This document shows, piece after piece, positions 27,168 through 55,798 of a stretch of 64,000 nt of DNA. Position numbers and translations under genes: made by a program. The notes under the pieces are model-generated. The model was not told where the DNA came from. It was given only the letters and a program-made list of their open reading frames with translations, and made no database searches. Location: NCBI RefSeq assembly GCF_000315545.1, contig NZ_JH992902.1, forward strand, positions 531,280-595,279. The letters are read 5' to 3'. How positions within the stretch are numbered: the stretch's first letter is position 1; each line of letters begins with the position of its first letter. The stretch is from Selenomonas sp. F0473 (GTDB lineage: Bacteria > Bacillota > Negativicutes > Selenomonadales > Selenomonadaceae).

Positions 27168-27620
27168 CTATGTAAAATTTTCGAGGGTCAAAAGCATCGT
27201 CTTGAGCATCTGCACGCGTTCTTTGACGGCGAGCGTCTTAGAATGATAAAGCCCCGTCACCGTCTGCATCATGAGCGCCGCTTCGCGCGTCTCGACTATA
27301 CCGTGCTGCGCCAGATAACGCACCATCGACTGCACCGTCCCCATATCGGTCGTCTCGTCGATCTTCGACAGCATATCCTCATAGACAAGATCCTTCAGCG
27401 GCACCTGCACGATGCGGATGAACCCGCCGAGCCCGCGCCGCGATTCGACGACAAAGCCTTTATCCTGCGTAAAGCGCGTCGAGAGCACGTAGCTGATCTG
27501 CGACGGCGCGCACGAAATCTCGTCCGCAATATCCGTCCGCCGCAGTTCCACCTGGCCGTCCTGACGCGAGGCAAGCTGACGAAGAATATACGACTCGATC
27601 ATATCGGCAATATTGCTCAT
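27168..27620 (-). CDS. ctsR: Class III heat-shock repressor CtsR
   Basis: CtsR is a dimeric winged-helix repressor of clp genes. The 150-residue protein begins NIADMIESYILRQL, has the DNA-binding region PSQISYVLSTRFT and the conserved wing sequence ESRRGLGGFIRI. It heads the operon and probably represses it. A textbook heptad repeat was not found at its promoter, only a diverged one. AGAAGG lies before the ATG. Confidence 0.96.
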   Translation of the reverse strand: MSNIADMIESYILRQLASRQDGQVELRRTDIADEISCAPSQISYVLSTRFTQDKGFVVESRRGLGGFIRIVQVPLKDLVYEDMLSKIDETTDMGTVQSMVRYLAQHGIVETREAALMMQTVTGLYHSKTLAVKERVQMLKTMLLTLENFT

Positions 27621-27660: not shown

Positions 27661-27689
27661 ATTATATTTGATTTTTTGACTTTTGGCAA
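27661..27689 (-). promoter_or_regulatory. Promoter of ctsR-mcsA-mcsB-clpC
   Basis: -35 TTGCCA (27684-27689), 17-base spacer and perfect -10 TATAAT (27661-27666), which overlaps the stop codon of the preceding ABC transporter gene. The spacer AAAGTCAAAAAATCAAA holds two CtsR-like half sites with non-standard spacing. Confidence 0.8.
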
Positions 27690-29473: not shown

Positions 29474-29502
29474 AATATACCCTCCATGAAAATCATTGTC
29501 AA
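29474..29502 (-). promoter_or_regulatory. Promoter of the SbmA/YddA-like transporter
   Basis: Consensus -35 TTGACA (29497-29502), 17-base spacer, -10 TATATT (29474-29479). It sits directly after the terminator of the upstream operon. Confidence 0.85.
29487..29501 (-). promoter_or_regulatory. Candidate Fur box
   Basis: TGACAATGATTTTCA matches the 7-1-7 Fur box TGATAATnATTATCA at 12 of 14 specified positions. It overlaps the -35 and the spacer, an ideal place for repression. A Fur gene is present at 55.3 kb. Confidence 0.6.
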
Positions 29503-29531
29503 TATAAAAAGCCGCCCGCGGGCGGCAAAAA
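29502..29531 (-). terminator. Terminator of the long def-to-UPF0104 operon
   Basis: Perfect palindrome GCCGCCCG/CGGGCGGC followed by TTTTTA on the minus strand, ten bases after the UPF0104 stop. Confidence 0.92.
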
Positions 29532-29540
29532 CTTGGCGGC

Positions 29541-30521
29541 TCAATACCGCCGCAAAAATTCTCTCCCGAAGACGGCAACGGTATAATAAAAACCGATGAG
29601 AAACGGCAGATATTCGGCAATGAGCCGCCAGCAAACGGCAACAATGCCGACGGTGCCGGCGGGTACGATAGCGGCAAAGAGGAGGACGAAACCGCCCTCG
29701 GCGACACCGGAGCCGCCGGGCGTGGGGCTGAAATAGAGCAGCATATTGAGGAAGATCATACGCCCCATAACGGTGTACCAGTCGACGCCCGCAACGCCGA
29801 GCCCCAGCAGGAGGCACGGCACGACGGCGTAGATACAAAGGAGGTTCAGCCCCGATTCGGCAAAGACGACGAGCATCCCGCGCGGCGCTCCCACCAGAAG
29901 AGAAATGGCGCTCTTCGTGTCGCGGTAAAGGGCAAAGACCTGGTCGCGTCGTTTCTCACACAGCCGCCGTGCAAACCAAACCACAATATAGTCGAGATAA
30001 CCGCGCCGCGCACCGATCACGATGGCGATGATGCCGAAAAACGCCGCAAGGGTCGCCGCCATCAGGATATCGTTGGAGATGCCCGGAATGATGCCCTCGT
30101 CATGCAGAAAAATCAACGGCATACAAAGCGCGAGAAAGAAGATCGAGAGCAGCGTGCGCACGATAACGAGCACGGCCGCCTTGCCCGTGGGCACGCCCGC
30201 ATGGCGCAGGAACATGACCTGCGCGACCGCGCCGCCCGTCGCCCCCGGCGTTAAGAGCGCGAGAAAGTAGTTGCCGAAAATGACCTGCACCGCCTGATAG
30301 AGCGTGATGCGCTCGTTCGATATCTTTACGAGGTGCATGAGACGGCTGCCGTCGAAAAACATACCGAGCCCGACGGCGCAGAGCGCGAGCAGGAGCGACC
30401 ACGGCTGGAACCGCGTGAGATTCTGCAGCGTATTGATATCGACGGTCGTATAAATGACCGCGCCCGAGATGCCGACGACAAGCACGAAAAGGAGGAGAAA
30501 GCGGCGCGTGAATTTACTCAT
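29541..30521 (-). CDS. LPG synthase-type (UPF0104) membrane protein
   Basis: A 326-residue integral membrane protein with about eight helices, matching the lysylphosphatidylglycerol synthase TM region (MprF flippase-like, YbhN). Recognisable segments are LLTPGATGGAVAQVMFLRHAGVP and YFSPTPGGSGVAEGGF. It has no aminoacyl-transfer domain, so it is not a full MprF. Such stand-alone proteins are thought to move or protect lipids; the substrate here is unknown. It is the last gene of the long operon. Confidence 0.88.
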   Translation of the reverse strand: MSKFTRRFLLLFVLVVGISGAVIYTTVDINTLQNLTRFQPWSLLLALCAVGLGMFFDGSRLMHLVKISNERITLYQAVQVIFGNYFLALLTPGATGGAVAQVMFLRHAGVPTGKAAVLVIVRTLLSIFFLALCMPLIFLHDEGIIPGISNDILMAATLAAFFGIIAIVIGARRGYLDYIVVWFARRLCEKRRDQVFALYRDTKSAISLLVGAPRGMLVVFAESGLNLLCIYAVVPCLLLGLGVAGVDWYTVMGRMIFLNMLLYFSPTPGGSGVAEGGFVLLFAAIVPAGTVGIVAVCWRLIAEYLPFLIGFYYTVAVFGREFLRRY

Positions 30522-53811: not shown

Positions 53812-55319
53812 GCAGGTACTTCCTCCTCGTATTCGGCGCGCAGGAGCGCGCGTCTCTTTTCGATATAAATGTCAATGTCGCGCAGATAAGTCGTTAGATC
53901 CTTGGCGTTGAACGCCGAATGCATACGGCCGCTGCGCACGCCCATAACCTTGGTCGCCGCAGCCCCGCCGATGCCGACAACGGTCTGCCGCTCCTCCATG
54001 ATCTGAATGTTGTACATGCTCTCCGCCCCGGGGCGGGCATAGCCGACATTCTCGAGATCGCCGCTCATATAGCCCTGCCGGTAGAGGTAGTACGGGCGAT
54101 AGCCCGCGCTCTCCACAATATCCGTTGCGGCGGCGCTCATGCGCATGGTCTCGGCATCCGAGGGCAGCGCGACGCGGGTCTCCTCCATCATGCGGCACAG
54201 TCGGGAGCCGCGCTTAATGGCGAGGGCATGGAGCGTGATATCGTCGGGCGCGAGCGCCGTCACCTGCGCCATCGTTGAGGAAACATCCTCCGCCGTCTCG
54301 CCGGGCAGCCCCAAGATAACGTCCATATTGATGTGAAAATCATGCGCGGCGCGCAGGTCGTGCACCATCCGTACGATTTCCTCCGGGGTATGTCCGCGTC
54401 CAATACGGCGCAGCGTCTGCGCCTGCATCGACTGCGGGTTCACGCTGACGCGCGTCACGCGGAACTCTCTCATCCGCGCAATCTTCTCCGCGCTCATGCT
54501 GTCCGGACGCCCCGCCTCCACCGTGAATTCCAGAATGGACGATCCATAGAAGGCATTATATACCATTTCGAGCATTTCGGCAAAAAAATCATTCGGCAGA
54601 CTCGTCGGCGTTCCTCCGCCGACATAGATGTTCTGCACGGTGAGCCCGAGCGCCGCGATATCCGCGGCCGCCGCCGCAATATCGCGTGCGAGGACTTCCA
54701 TAAAGCCGCGCAGCTTCGCCTCCCCCGGCAGGAGATGCGCGGGAAAGGAGCAGTAGAGACAGCGCGTGATGCAGAACGGGATGCCGACATAGACGCTCGC
54801 CGTCCGCACATCCGTCCGCGCAAGGAACGGCTGCTGCCGCACGGCGACCTCCGTGATGAGCCGCGCCTTCTCCGCGCTGCAAAAATAGTCCGTCTGCAGC
54901 CGCCCGATAACCGTCTCCGGCGTCATTCCGGAGCGCAGCCAGCGGTGCACGATCTTCGTCGGACGCACCCCATGCAGAATGCCCCATGGAGCATGGGGCA
55001 TTTGAAAGCGGTCTCTGACAAATTGATAGAAATTTCGTTTGATCGCACGGTGTACGGCGGCGCGCTCGAGCTCGTCGGCGGCGCCCGCCGACGTATAGGA
55101 ATCGGTCTCGCGCGACCCGTCCGCCGCAAAGAGATGAACCTCTGTCGTCACGACGGGCAGCGCGGCCCGCCGCCGCTCTCGGTTCACGACCGACAGCTGG
55201 GCATAGTCCGCCGCGCCCGCCGCGCCGACAATCTCGATGTGAAAGAGCGCCAGCACTTCGCGGATGATCTTAACGACGACCTCGGCGCGGCTGTTCACCG
55301 TAAGGGTTCTGATCCTCAC
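53805..55319 (-). CDS. hemZ: Oxygen-independent coproporphyrinogen III dehydrogenase HemZ
   Basis: A radical SAM enzyme for anaerobic tetrapyrrole synthesis. The protein (about 504 residues) has the cluster CITRCLYC near residue 185, YVGGGTPTSL, the GLPGET motif and the long HemZ N-terminal domain. Most homologs carry a Pro after the first Cys of the cluster; here it is Ile. The likely start is GTG 55319, overlapping the fur stop (GTGA); a GTG 24 bases further upstream is possible. Linkage to fur and hisS-aspS is seen in other Firmicutes. Confidence 0.92.
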   Translation of the reverse strand: MRIRTLTVNSRAEVVVKIIREVLALFHIEIVGAAGAADYAQLSVVNRERRRAALPVVTTEVHLFAADGSRETDSYTSAGAADELERAAVHRAIKRNFYQFVRDRFQMPHAPWGILHGVRPTKIVHRWLRSGMTPETVIGRLQTDYFCSAEKARLITEVAVRQQPFLARTDVRTASVYVGIPFCITRCLYCSFPAHLLPGEAKLRGFMEVLARDIAAAAADIAALGLTVQNIYVGGGTPTSLPNDFFAEMLEMVYNAFYGSSILEFTVEAGRPDSMSAEKIARMREFRVTRVSVNPQSMQAQTLRRIGRGHTPEEIVRMVHDLRAAHDFHINMDVILGLPGETAEDVSSTMAQVTALAPDDITLHALAIKRGSRLCRMMEETRVALPSDAETMRMSAAATDIVESAGYRPYYLYRQGYMSGDLENVGYARPGAESMYNIQIMEERQTVVGIGGAAATKVMGVRSGRMHSAFNAKDLTTYLRDIDIYIEKRRALLRAEYEEEVPAC

Positions 55320-55798
55320 GCCCTTTTCTTTTTCTCCCTGCACTTGCCGCAGATACCGAAGAATTTCGCCTGGTGATTCTCCACCTTGAAGCCGGTCTTC
55401 TTTAAGATATCCGCTTCAAGATGCTCCAGCATATCCTCCTCGAACTCGGTAATCTCCTTGCACTCCGTGCAGATGAGATGGTGATGGAAATGCTGGTTCG
55501 GATCGACCGGGTTCAGCTCGTAGGAATACGATCCTTTGTTGCGTTTGTCAAATTCCTTGCCAAATTCAATTTTTTGAAGAATGCCGAGCGAGACGAGAAT
55601 CTCGAGGCTGCGGTACACCGTCGCGAGCCCGATCTCGGACTCCGTGCCCCGCAGGATATCGTAGATTTTCTCCGCGCTCAGATGTTCGCCGGGGTGGTCG
55701 AGAATGACCTGCAGTACGATCTGCCGCTGCGGCGTCATCTTGCGCTGCGTTGCCTGCAGACGTTTCCTGAGGTCTTCCATCGTATAAGTATCTGCCAT
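55316..55798 (-). CDS. fur: Fur-family ferric uptake regulator
   Basis: A dimeric metal-sensing repressor. The 160-residue protein has a winged helix (MTPQRQIVLQVILDH...GLATVYRSLEILVSLGIL), the metal-site HFHHHLIC and zinc Cys pairs CTEC and CGKC. The HHHLIC and GLATVYR patterns fit Fur better than Zur or PerR, but PerR cannot be fully excluded. An iron uptake operon lies 1.7 kb away. The start is ATG 55798 after GGAGGGG. Confidence 0.93.
   Translation of the reverse strand: MADTYTMEDLRKRLQATQRKMTPQRQIVLQVILDHPGEHLSAEKIYDILRGTESEIGLATVYRSLEILVSLGILQKIEFGKEFDKRNKGSYSYELNPVDPNQHFHHHLICTECKEITEFEEDMLEHLEADILKKTGFKVENHQAKFFGICGKCREKKKRA

Follow-up and report, generated by a model that had tools for sequence, protein, structure and literature searches.

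In Escherichia coli, the yddA-yddB-pqqL genes have a Fur box at yddA and are described as Fur-regulated (PMC3855560, PMC6793856, PMC7157518). In strain CFT073, yddA is reported to respond to deletion of fur and not to the iron level alone (PMC3855560), and YddB and PqqL have been tied to a ferredoxin system (PMC6793856). The YddA family itself is presented in a 2026 paper as conserved and of unknown function (PMC13316013). Other transporters offer partial comparisons. Rv1819c of Mycobacterium tuberculosis, a one-chain permease-ATPase, is described as an importer of B12 and antimicrobial peptides, and the passages cited report no link to a TonB receptor or a Fur box (PMC3603451, PMC13316013). 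FusD of Pectobacterium is an inner-membrane transporter encoded in a TonB-receptor cluster, with a proposed iron-related cargo (PMC6793856); it belongs to a ferredoxin system with the protease FusC, and we liken it to the present case by description and not by sequence. YbtPQ and IrtAB are described as exporter-fold ABC proteins that import ferric siderophores (PMC10246721, PMC10967856, PMC7876324), and SbmA, of the SbmA/BacA (SLiPT) group, as a proton-driven protein without an ATPase domain (PMC13316013).

The locus described here lies in a 64 kb window, the whole stretch of Selenomonas DNA that was analysed. With its relatives it recalls the E. coli yddA-yddB-pqqL genes in combining a YddA-type fused ABC transporter with an adjacent gene for a TonB-dependent receptor, the leading gene carrying a Fur box. 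It differs from the known Fur-controlled YddA systems in three respects, besides having another gene order than in E. coli: the receptor is of siderophore type (FemA/BauA-like here, YddB/FusA-like there), no neighbouring protease is seen, and the transporter is orphaned in the window copy, whose receptor has been lost. The adjoining TonB receptor of the Fus and YddAB-PqqL systems is thus absent in the window and present in Selenomonas infelix and in genome G013. No M16 protease was seen among the translated ORFs adjoining the transporter in the window and in S. infelix.

The transporter (P0001, Table 1) exceeds the cut-offs for ABC_membrane_2 (PF06472, 169 bits), SbmA_BacA (PF05992) and ABC_tran (PF00005, 64 bits) within one chain, as expected from the fused permease-ATPase announced by an earlier, sequence-only reading of this DNA. 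Its ATPase motifs are all in place: GPSGIGKS at residue 413 (Walker A), LSLGE at 503 (signature), WIFLDE at 523 (Walker B) and SVAHR at 556 (H-loop). Its best PDB match is 6tqe (E 3.1e-84), which we take to be Rv1819c, and the cobalamin transporter ABCD4 is also among the closest solved relatives. Because all the ATPase motifs are present and the nearest solved relative is Rv1819c, P0001 is classed by its sequence as a YddA/Rv1819c-type full-length ABC transporter. An SbmA/BacA identity, which the PF05992 match could have indicated, is ruled out by the complete ATPase domain, since SbmA is described as having none (PMC13316013).

Table 1. Positions in the window of the transporter gene, its promoter elements, its neighbours and the presumed regulator
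Feature	Positions	Strand	Basis or remark
ctsR	27168..27620	-	right neighbour of the cassette
YddA/Rv1819c-type fused permease-ATPase P0001, 595 aa	27662..29449	-	Pfam domains, motifs, PDB match
sigma-70-type promoter TTGACA-17-TATATT	29474..29502	-	11/12 consensus positions
Fur-box-like dyad TGACAATGATTTTCA (probable site)	29487..29501	-	12/14 to TGATAATNATTATCA; shuffles; register as in S. infelix and G013
terminator-like hairpin of the upstream gene	29511..29526	-	T run ends at the promoter; folding weak, z -1.06
LPG_synthase_TM (YbhN-like) gene, upstream	29541..30521	-	flanks the cassette on the left, likewise in S. infelix and G013
fur gene, 160 aa, presumed regulator (L001)	55316..55798	-	best PDB match 9ire, ferric uptake regulation protein, E 5.2e-33

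Orthologs of this gene are few. A scan of named genomes gave three loci and a single ortholog, in S. infelix (79% identity; locus L020, taken as the same strain as genome G005). Among 14 genomes of the genus and 189 of the family, matches of at least 57% identity occur in only four: the window genome itself (G000), G013 (locus L053, 85%), S. infelix and G001 (58%). The next-best match falls to 44%. These four sequences form a single clade (100/100) in a tree of 52 of the 53 gathered sequences, which carried a long-branch warning and from which a length filter had removed one (L223). The clade is separate from a paralog of 39-44% identity that is found across the family, which rules out that the window gene is a simple copy of it. 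Within the genus, the paralog is divergent from exbBD in 13 of the 14 genomes, and the exbB side of the region holds a dyad with at most three mismatches in seven of the 14; for these two reasons the genus paralog may also be tied to TonB-dependent uptake.

The sequence-only reading had also placed in the 29474-29502 interval a 12-of-14 match to the Fur 7-1-7 word, overlapping the -35 box of a TTGACA-17-TATATT promoter. Both observations hold. On the minus strand the promoter runs from 29502 to 29474 and ends 24 bp upstream of the transporter gene, and the 15-mer TGACAATGATTTTCA (29487-29501), two mismatches away from TGATAATNATTATCA, spans most of the -35 box and runs 10 nt into the spacer. 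The Fur and PerR words used for scoring are those that we take to be the consensus. In the window this 15-mer is the sole match with at most two mismatches (0.07 expected), and six of 100 shuffled windows contained such a match; when the 250 bp upstream of the transporter start codon were shuffled with their dinucleotide make-up kept, none of 2000 shuffles equalled it. Across the 2.07 Mb genome there are eight such sites, this one included, and at least one of the others falls within a coding frame. Because eight places match equally well, the match taken alone is modest evidence; the case is carried by its position in the promoter and by the conservation of that position. The best Fur-like match in the genome is TGATAATAAATATCA (one mismatch, L003 113-127), upstream of a sufC-like and then a sufB-like gene, both named from reading the translations. 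It makes a good positive control for Fur binding.

A search for the box upstream of orthologs, proposed earlier as a check with lack of conservation as the refuting outcome, did not refute the idea: it found the box in the same register in two of the three others, and in G001 only as a four-mismatch version in a shifted register, where a promoter of 10/12 precedes a receptor remnant (L055). With the window included, three of the four orthologous loci thus have a Fur-like box with at most three mismatches overlapping the -35 of the equivalent promoter: the mismatches number two in the window, two in S. infelix and three in G013, and the counterpart promoters of the last two score 11/12 and 12/12. 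When these three regions are aligned from the ybhN end, the -35, the box, a gap of 7 nt and the -10 are common to all. S. infelix and G013 also have a hairpin at the position equivalent to that of the window hairpin, and these upstream terminator hairpins differ among the three. Within the 17-nt spacer, seven of the 10 box positions are invariant against two of the seven others, a difference that in three sequences is not significant alone (Fisher p 0.12).

The same data bear on whether the resemblance could be accidental, a good -35 beside a T-rich spacer and not a Fur operator. Half of the box falls on the -35, the TGACA portion of TGACAATGATTTTCA belongs to that hexamer too and might be conserved on that account, comparable matches are found elsewhere in the genome, and the invariance of the spacer does not decide the matter. 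Three observations speak against it: the shuffles of the upstream region never matched the box, the second half-site, which the -35 does not explain, is retained in two orthologs despite diverged flanks, and boxes with one mismatch are found independently in a separate clade (clade B, below). We therefore judge an accident distinctly improbable, and regard the window dyad as a probable Fur binding site.

The window genome encodes two Fur-family proteins, one Fur, whose gene lies within the window, and one PerR. The Fur candidate has a Fur as its best NCBIfam model (145 bits, below the cut-off of 220), and PerR stands above its own cut-off. PerR and Fur boxes resemble each other, and with a PerR encoded in the genome the box might serve PerR, or some other member of the Fur family, instead of Fur. 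Such a reading is very improbable in our estimation: the window box has four mismatches to the PerR word against two to the Fur word, the preference is consistent over all orthologs, and the partner gene in the relatives is a siderophore receptor. Fur remains the presumed regulator. Of 29 receptor genes in the same genome, which contains 29 TonB-receptor plug domains, three have a box with at most three mismatches; judged by the consensus used, most of these receptors are not obviously Fur targets. The feo genes cannot be used for calibrating the box, because the upstream regions of six FeoB loci gave no match with at most three mismatches; the exbB side of the paralog region, with its seven of 14, performed better. 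FeoB_N matches of about E 1e-60 were seen in six of the 14 genus genomes, and none such in the window genome.

In S. infelix the genes run queC, folE2, ybhN, TonB receptor, transporter, ctsR, mcsA, mcsB, clpC (apart from ybhN, ctsR, the receptor and the transporter, these were named from reading translations), and G013 has the same core order, ybhN-receptor-transporter-ctsR. The window reads ybhN-transporter-ctsR, and the sole gene missing relative to these relatives is the receptor. Since the best match in the window genome to a receptor of the S. infelix/G013 type reaches only 29%, the receptor ortholog is gone from the genome. The relatives' receptor scores 327 bits on the TonB-siderophor model TIGR01783 (cut-off 223.5), and its best solved relatives are FemA (E 1.1e-133) and BauA (E 7.1e-105). 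In G001 the transporter lies near prfC, behind a receptor remnant of 185 aa. Its ybhN-ctsR site, the place of the cassette in S. infelix and G013 as well as in the window, is vacant, the two genes being about 180 bp apart (L242 1950-2132). Because G001 has a transporter and a receptor remnant elsewhere while its ybhN-ctsR site is empty, gene order indicates that the receptor-transporter pair predates both locations; in the window lineage the receptor has been lost and the promoter retained.

In S. infelix and G013 the conserved promoter precedes the TonB siderophore receptor gene, which is followed by the transporter gene. That it drives such a receptor in two relatives strengthens the iron link. 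The earlier idea of Fur control is upheld in that the box is kept at orthologs and its promoter drives a siderophore receptor, and it has to be amended in that the box of the relatives serves the receptor-transporter pair. In these relatives the box would control the pair as a unit, and the window site is best understood as the remainder of the operon promoter after the receptor was lost. Between receptor and transporter, S. infelix, G013 and G001 have a stable hairpin whose 3' arm is rich in T (z -4.1, -3.1 and -4.4), which may lower transporter expression in these genomes; the window transporter stands directly behind the promoter, without an intervening hairpin.

The reading frame of P0001 is intact, with a dN/dS of 0.109 against G013. 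The value between the G013 and S. infelix transporters (0.053) is about half of this. The window transporter is thus still under selection, perhaps less strictly, and the higher value may reflect relaxed selection after receptor loss. The S. infelix transporter gene has a 1-nt frameshift inside a T run, which may be a sequencing error, the genome being a draft. Its receptor gene has a poly-G tract in the signal-peptide region, G8 (L020 ~2762), which puts the receptor out of frame with the ATG; the same tract is G9 and in frame in G013 (L053, start 10391, minus strand), and the receptor is possibly phase-variable. At the other end of the cassette, the ctsR promoter (window 27661-27684) contains a CtsR-operator-like word of GTCAAA-type repeats, found in similar form in the 14 genus genomes. 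The window transporter is 13 codons longer at its 3' end and reaches this word, and a spacer of about 450-490 bp that is present in the relatives is absent between the two.

A search of 380 genomes across the class, with the 33% homolog of G011 as query, yielded two further clades that are separate in the tree: clade B (G011, G365, G348 and G322) and clade C (G300, G298 and G257). Both adjoin TonB receptors, with one intervening gene in G322, and the siderophore-type receptor was found in clade B and in clade A, that of the window gene. The transporter-receptor locus of G298 is followed by tonB-, exbB- and exbD-like genes, and G257 has a tonB-like gene downstream. Fur boxes with one mismatch occur in G011 and G322; in the latter, in-frame stops interrupt the receptor gene, and the 1-mismatch box belongs to the transporter itself, 35 bp upstream of the probable start. 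Altogether, seven of 12 upstream regions in TonB-linked loci have a box with at most three mismatches (five of 12 with at most two), that of G365 being at chance level (233 of 2000 shuffles were as good). The five regions without one belong to G348, G300, G298 (two regions) and G257. Control regions upstream of the core paralog outside the genus have a box in two of 26 cases, and none of these 26 loci has a receptor or exbBD within 1.5 kb. A YddA-type transporter adjoins only two of 36 loci encoding FemA-like or more distant receptors, which speaks against a general rule. Directly after the clade B transporter, a methyltransferase-like gene, named from reading its translation, is found in G365 (L228 1657-2400) and G322 (L230 7050-7763).

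Taken together, we consider it reasonably likely that the window gene is what is left of a receptor-transporter cassette and that it encodes an inner-membrane importer, repressed by Fur, for an iron chelate resembling a siderophore. The Fur operator would overlie the -35 and the spacer of the one promoter evident for the transporter. When iron is abundant, Fe-Fur would occlude the -35 and keep RNA polymerase out; when it is scarce, transcription would begin about 18 bp upstream of the start codon. The product is predicted to be an ATP-driven importer with the YddA/Rv1819c (type IV) fold, probably a homodimer, which would most likely move a ferric siderophore or similar chelate from the periplasm to the cytoplasm. 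In the ancestor, its gene would have stood second in a cassette under Fur control, behind the leading gene, which encoded a FemA/BauA-like TonB siderophore receptor; after deletion of that receptor in the window lineage, the transporter would take substrate delivered by other outer-membrane receptors. Fur binding, the iron response, the direction of transport and the substrate are all predictions from sequence. We infer import of an iron chelate for two reasons: the transporter's ancestral partner is a receptor of siderophore type, and exporter-fold ABC proteins such as YbtPQ and IrtAB, which belong to another ABC subfamily and consist of two different chains, can import siderophores.

The operator could be real even if the cargo is not an iron chelate but, for instance, B12, a peptide or, as proposed for FusD, a breakdown product of an iron protein. 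The closest solved relatives, the B12 and peptide importer Rv1819c (PMC3603451, PMC13316013) and the cobalamin protein ABCD4, make a B12 or peptide substrate possible, and the E. coli homolog adjoins a receptor and an M16 protease in what is described as a putative protein-import system (PMC6793856). Such cargoes are nevertheless unlikely in our judgement, given that the relatives' receptor fits the siderophore model and reaches only 51 bits on the TonB-B12 model (cut-off 599.7), that no cobalamin riboswitch was detected at the gathering threshold in the window, L020, L053, L055 or L058, and that no protease gene was seen beside the pair in S. infelix. The missing riboswitch and the receptor's misfit to the B12 model led us to set B12 uptake aside as the main explanation and to keep it as a rival to iron-chelate import.

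The iron-related role proposed earlier as new for this group in Negativicutes is already known for the family from E. coli yddAB-pqqL; for Negativicutes it appears to be new. No report of a Fur-controlled YddA-type gene in Negativicutes was found in the literature searched, whose coverage excludes most subscription journals. The receptor is gone in the window, truncated in G001 and broken by stops in G322. As a broader and tentative idea, on which we would not yet rely, Negativicutes YddA-type proteins may be siderophore importers without a dedicated receptor: they would travel in cassettes with exchangeable TonB receptors, hold on to the Fur promoter once the receptor has decayed, and thereafter work for several receptors of the outer membrane. 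If this is true, the family gains a substrate class.

The link to TonB receptors in three separate clades, together with Fur boxes in two of them, suggests an iron-uptake job for a YddA-family transporter and provides a testable proposal for the cargo of YddA. The window locus illustrates that the receptor of an uptake operon can disappear from a lineage in which the regulated importer persists. Drugs linked to siderophores could use such importers to enter the cell.
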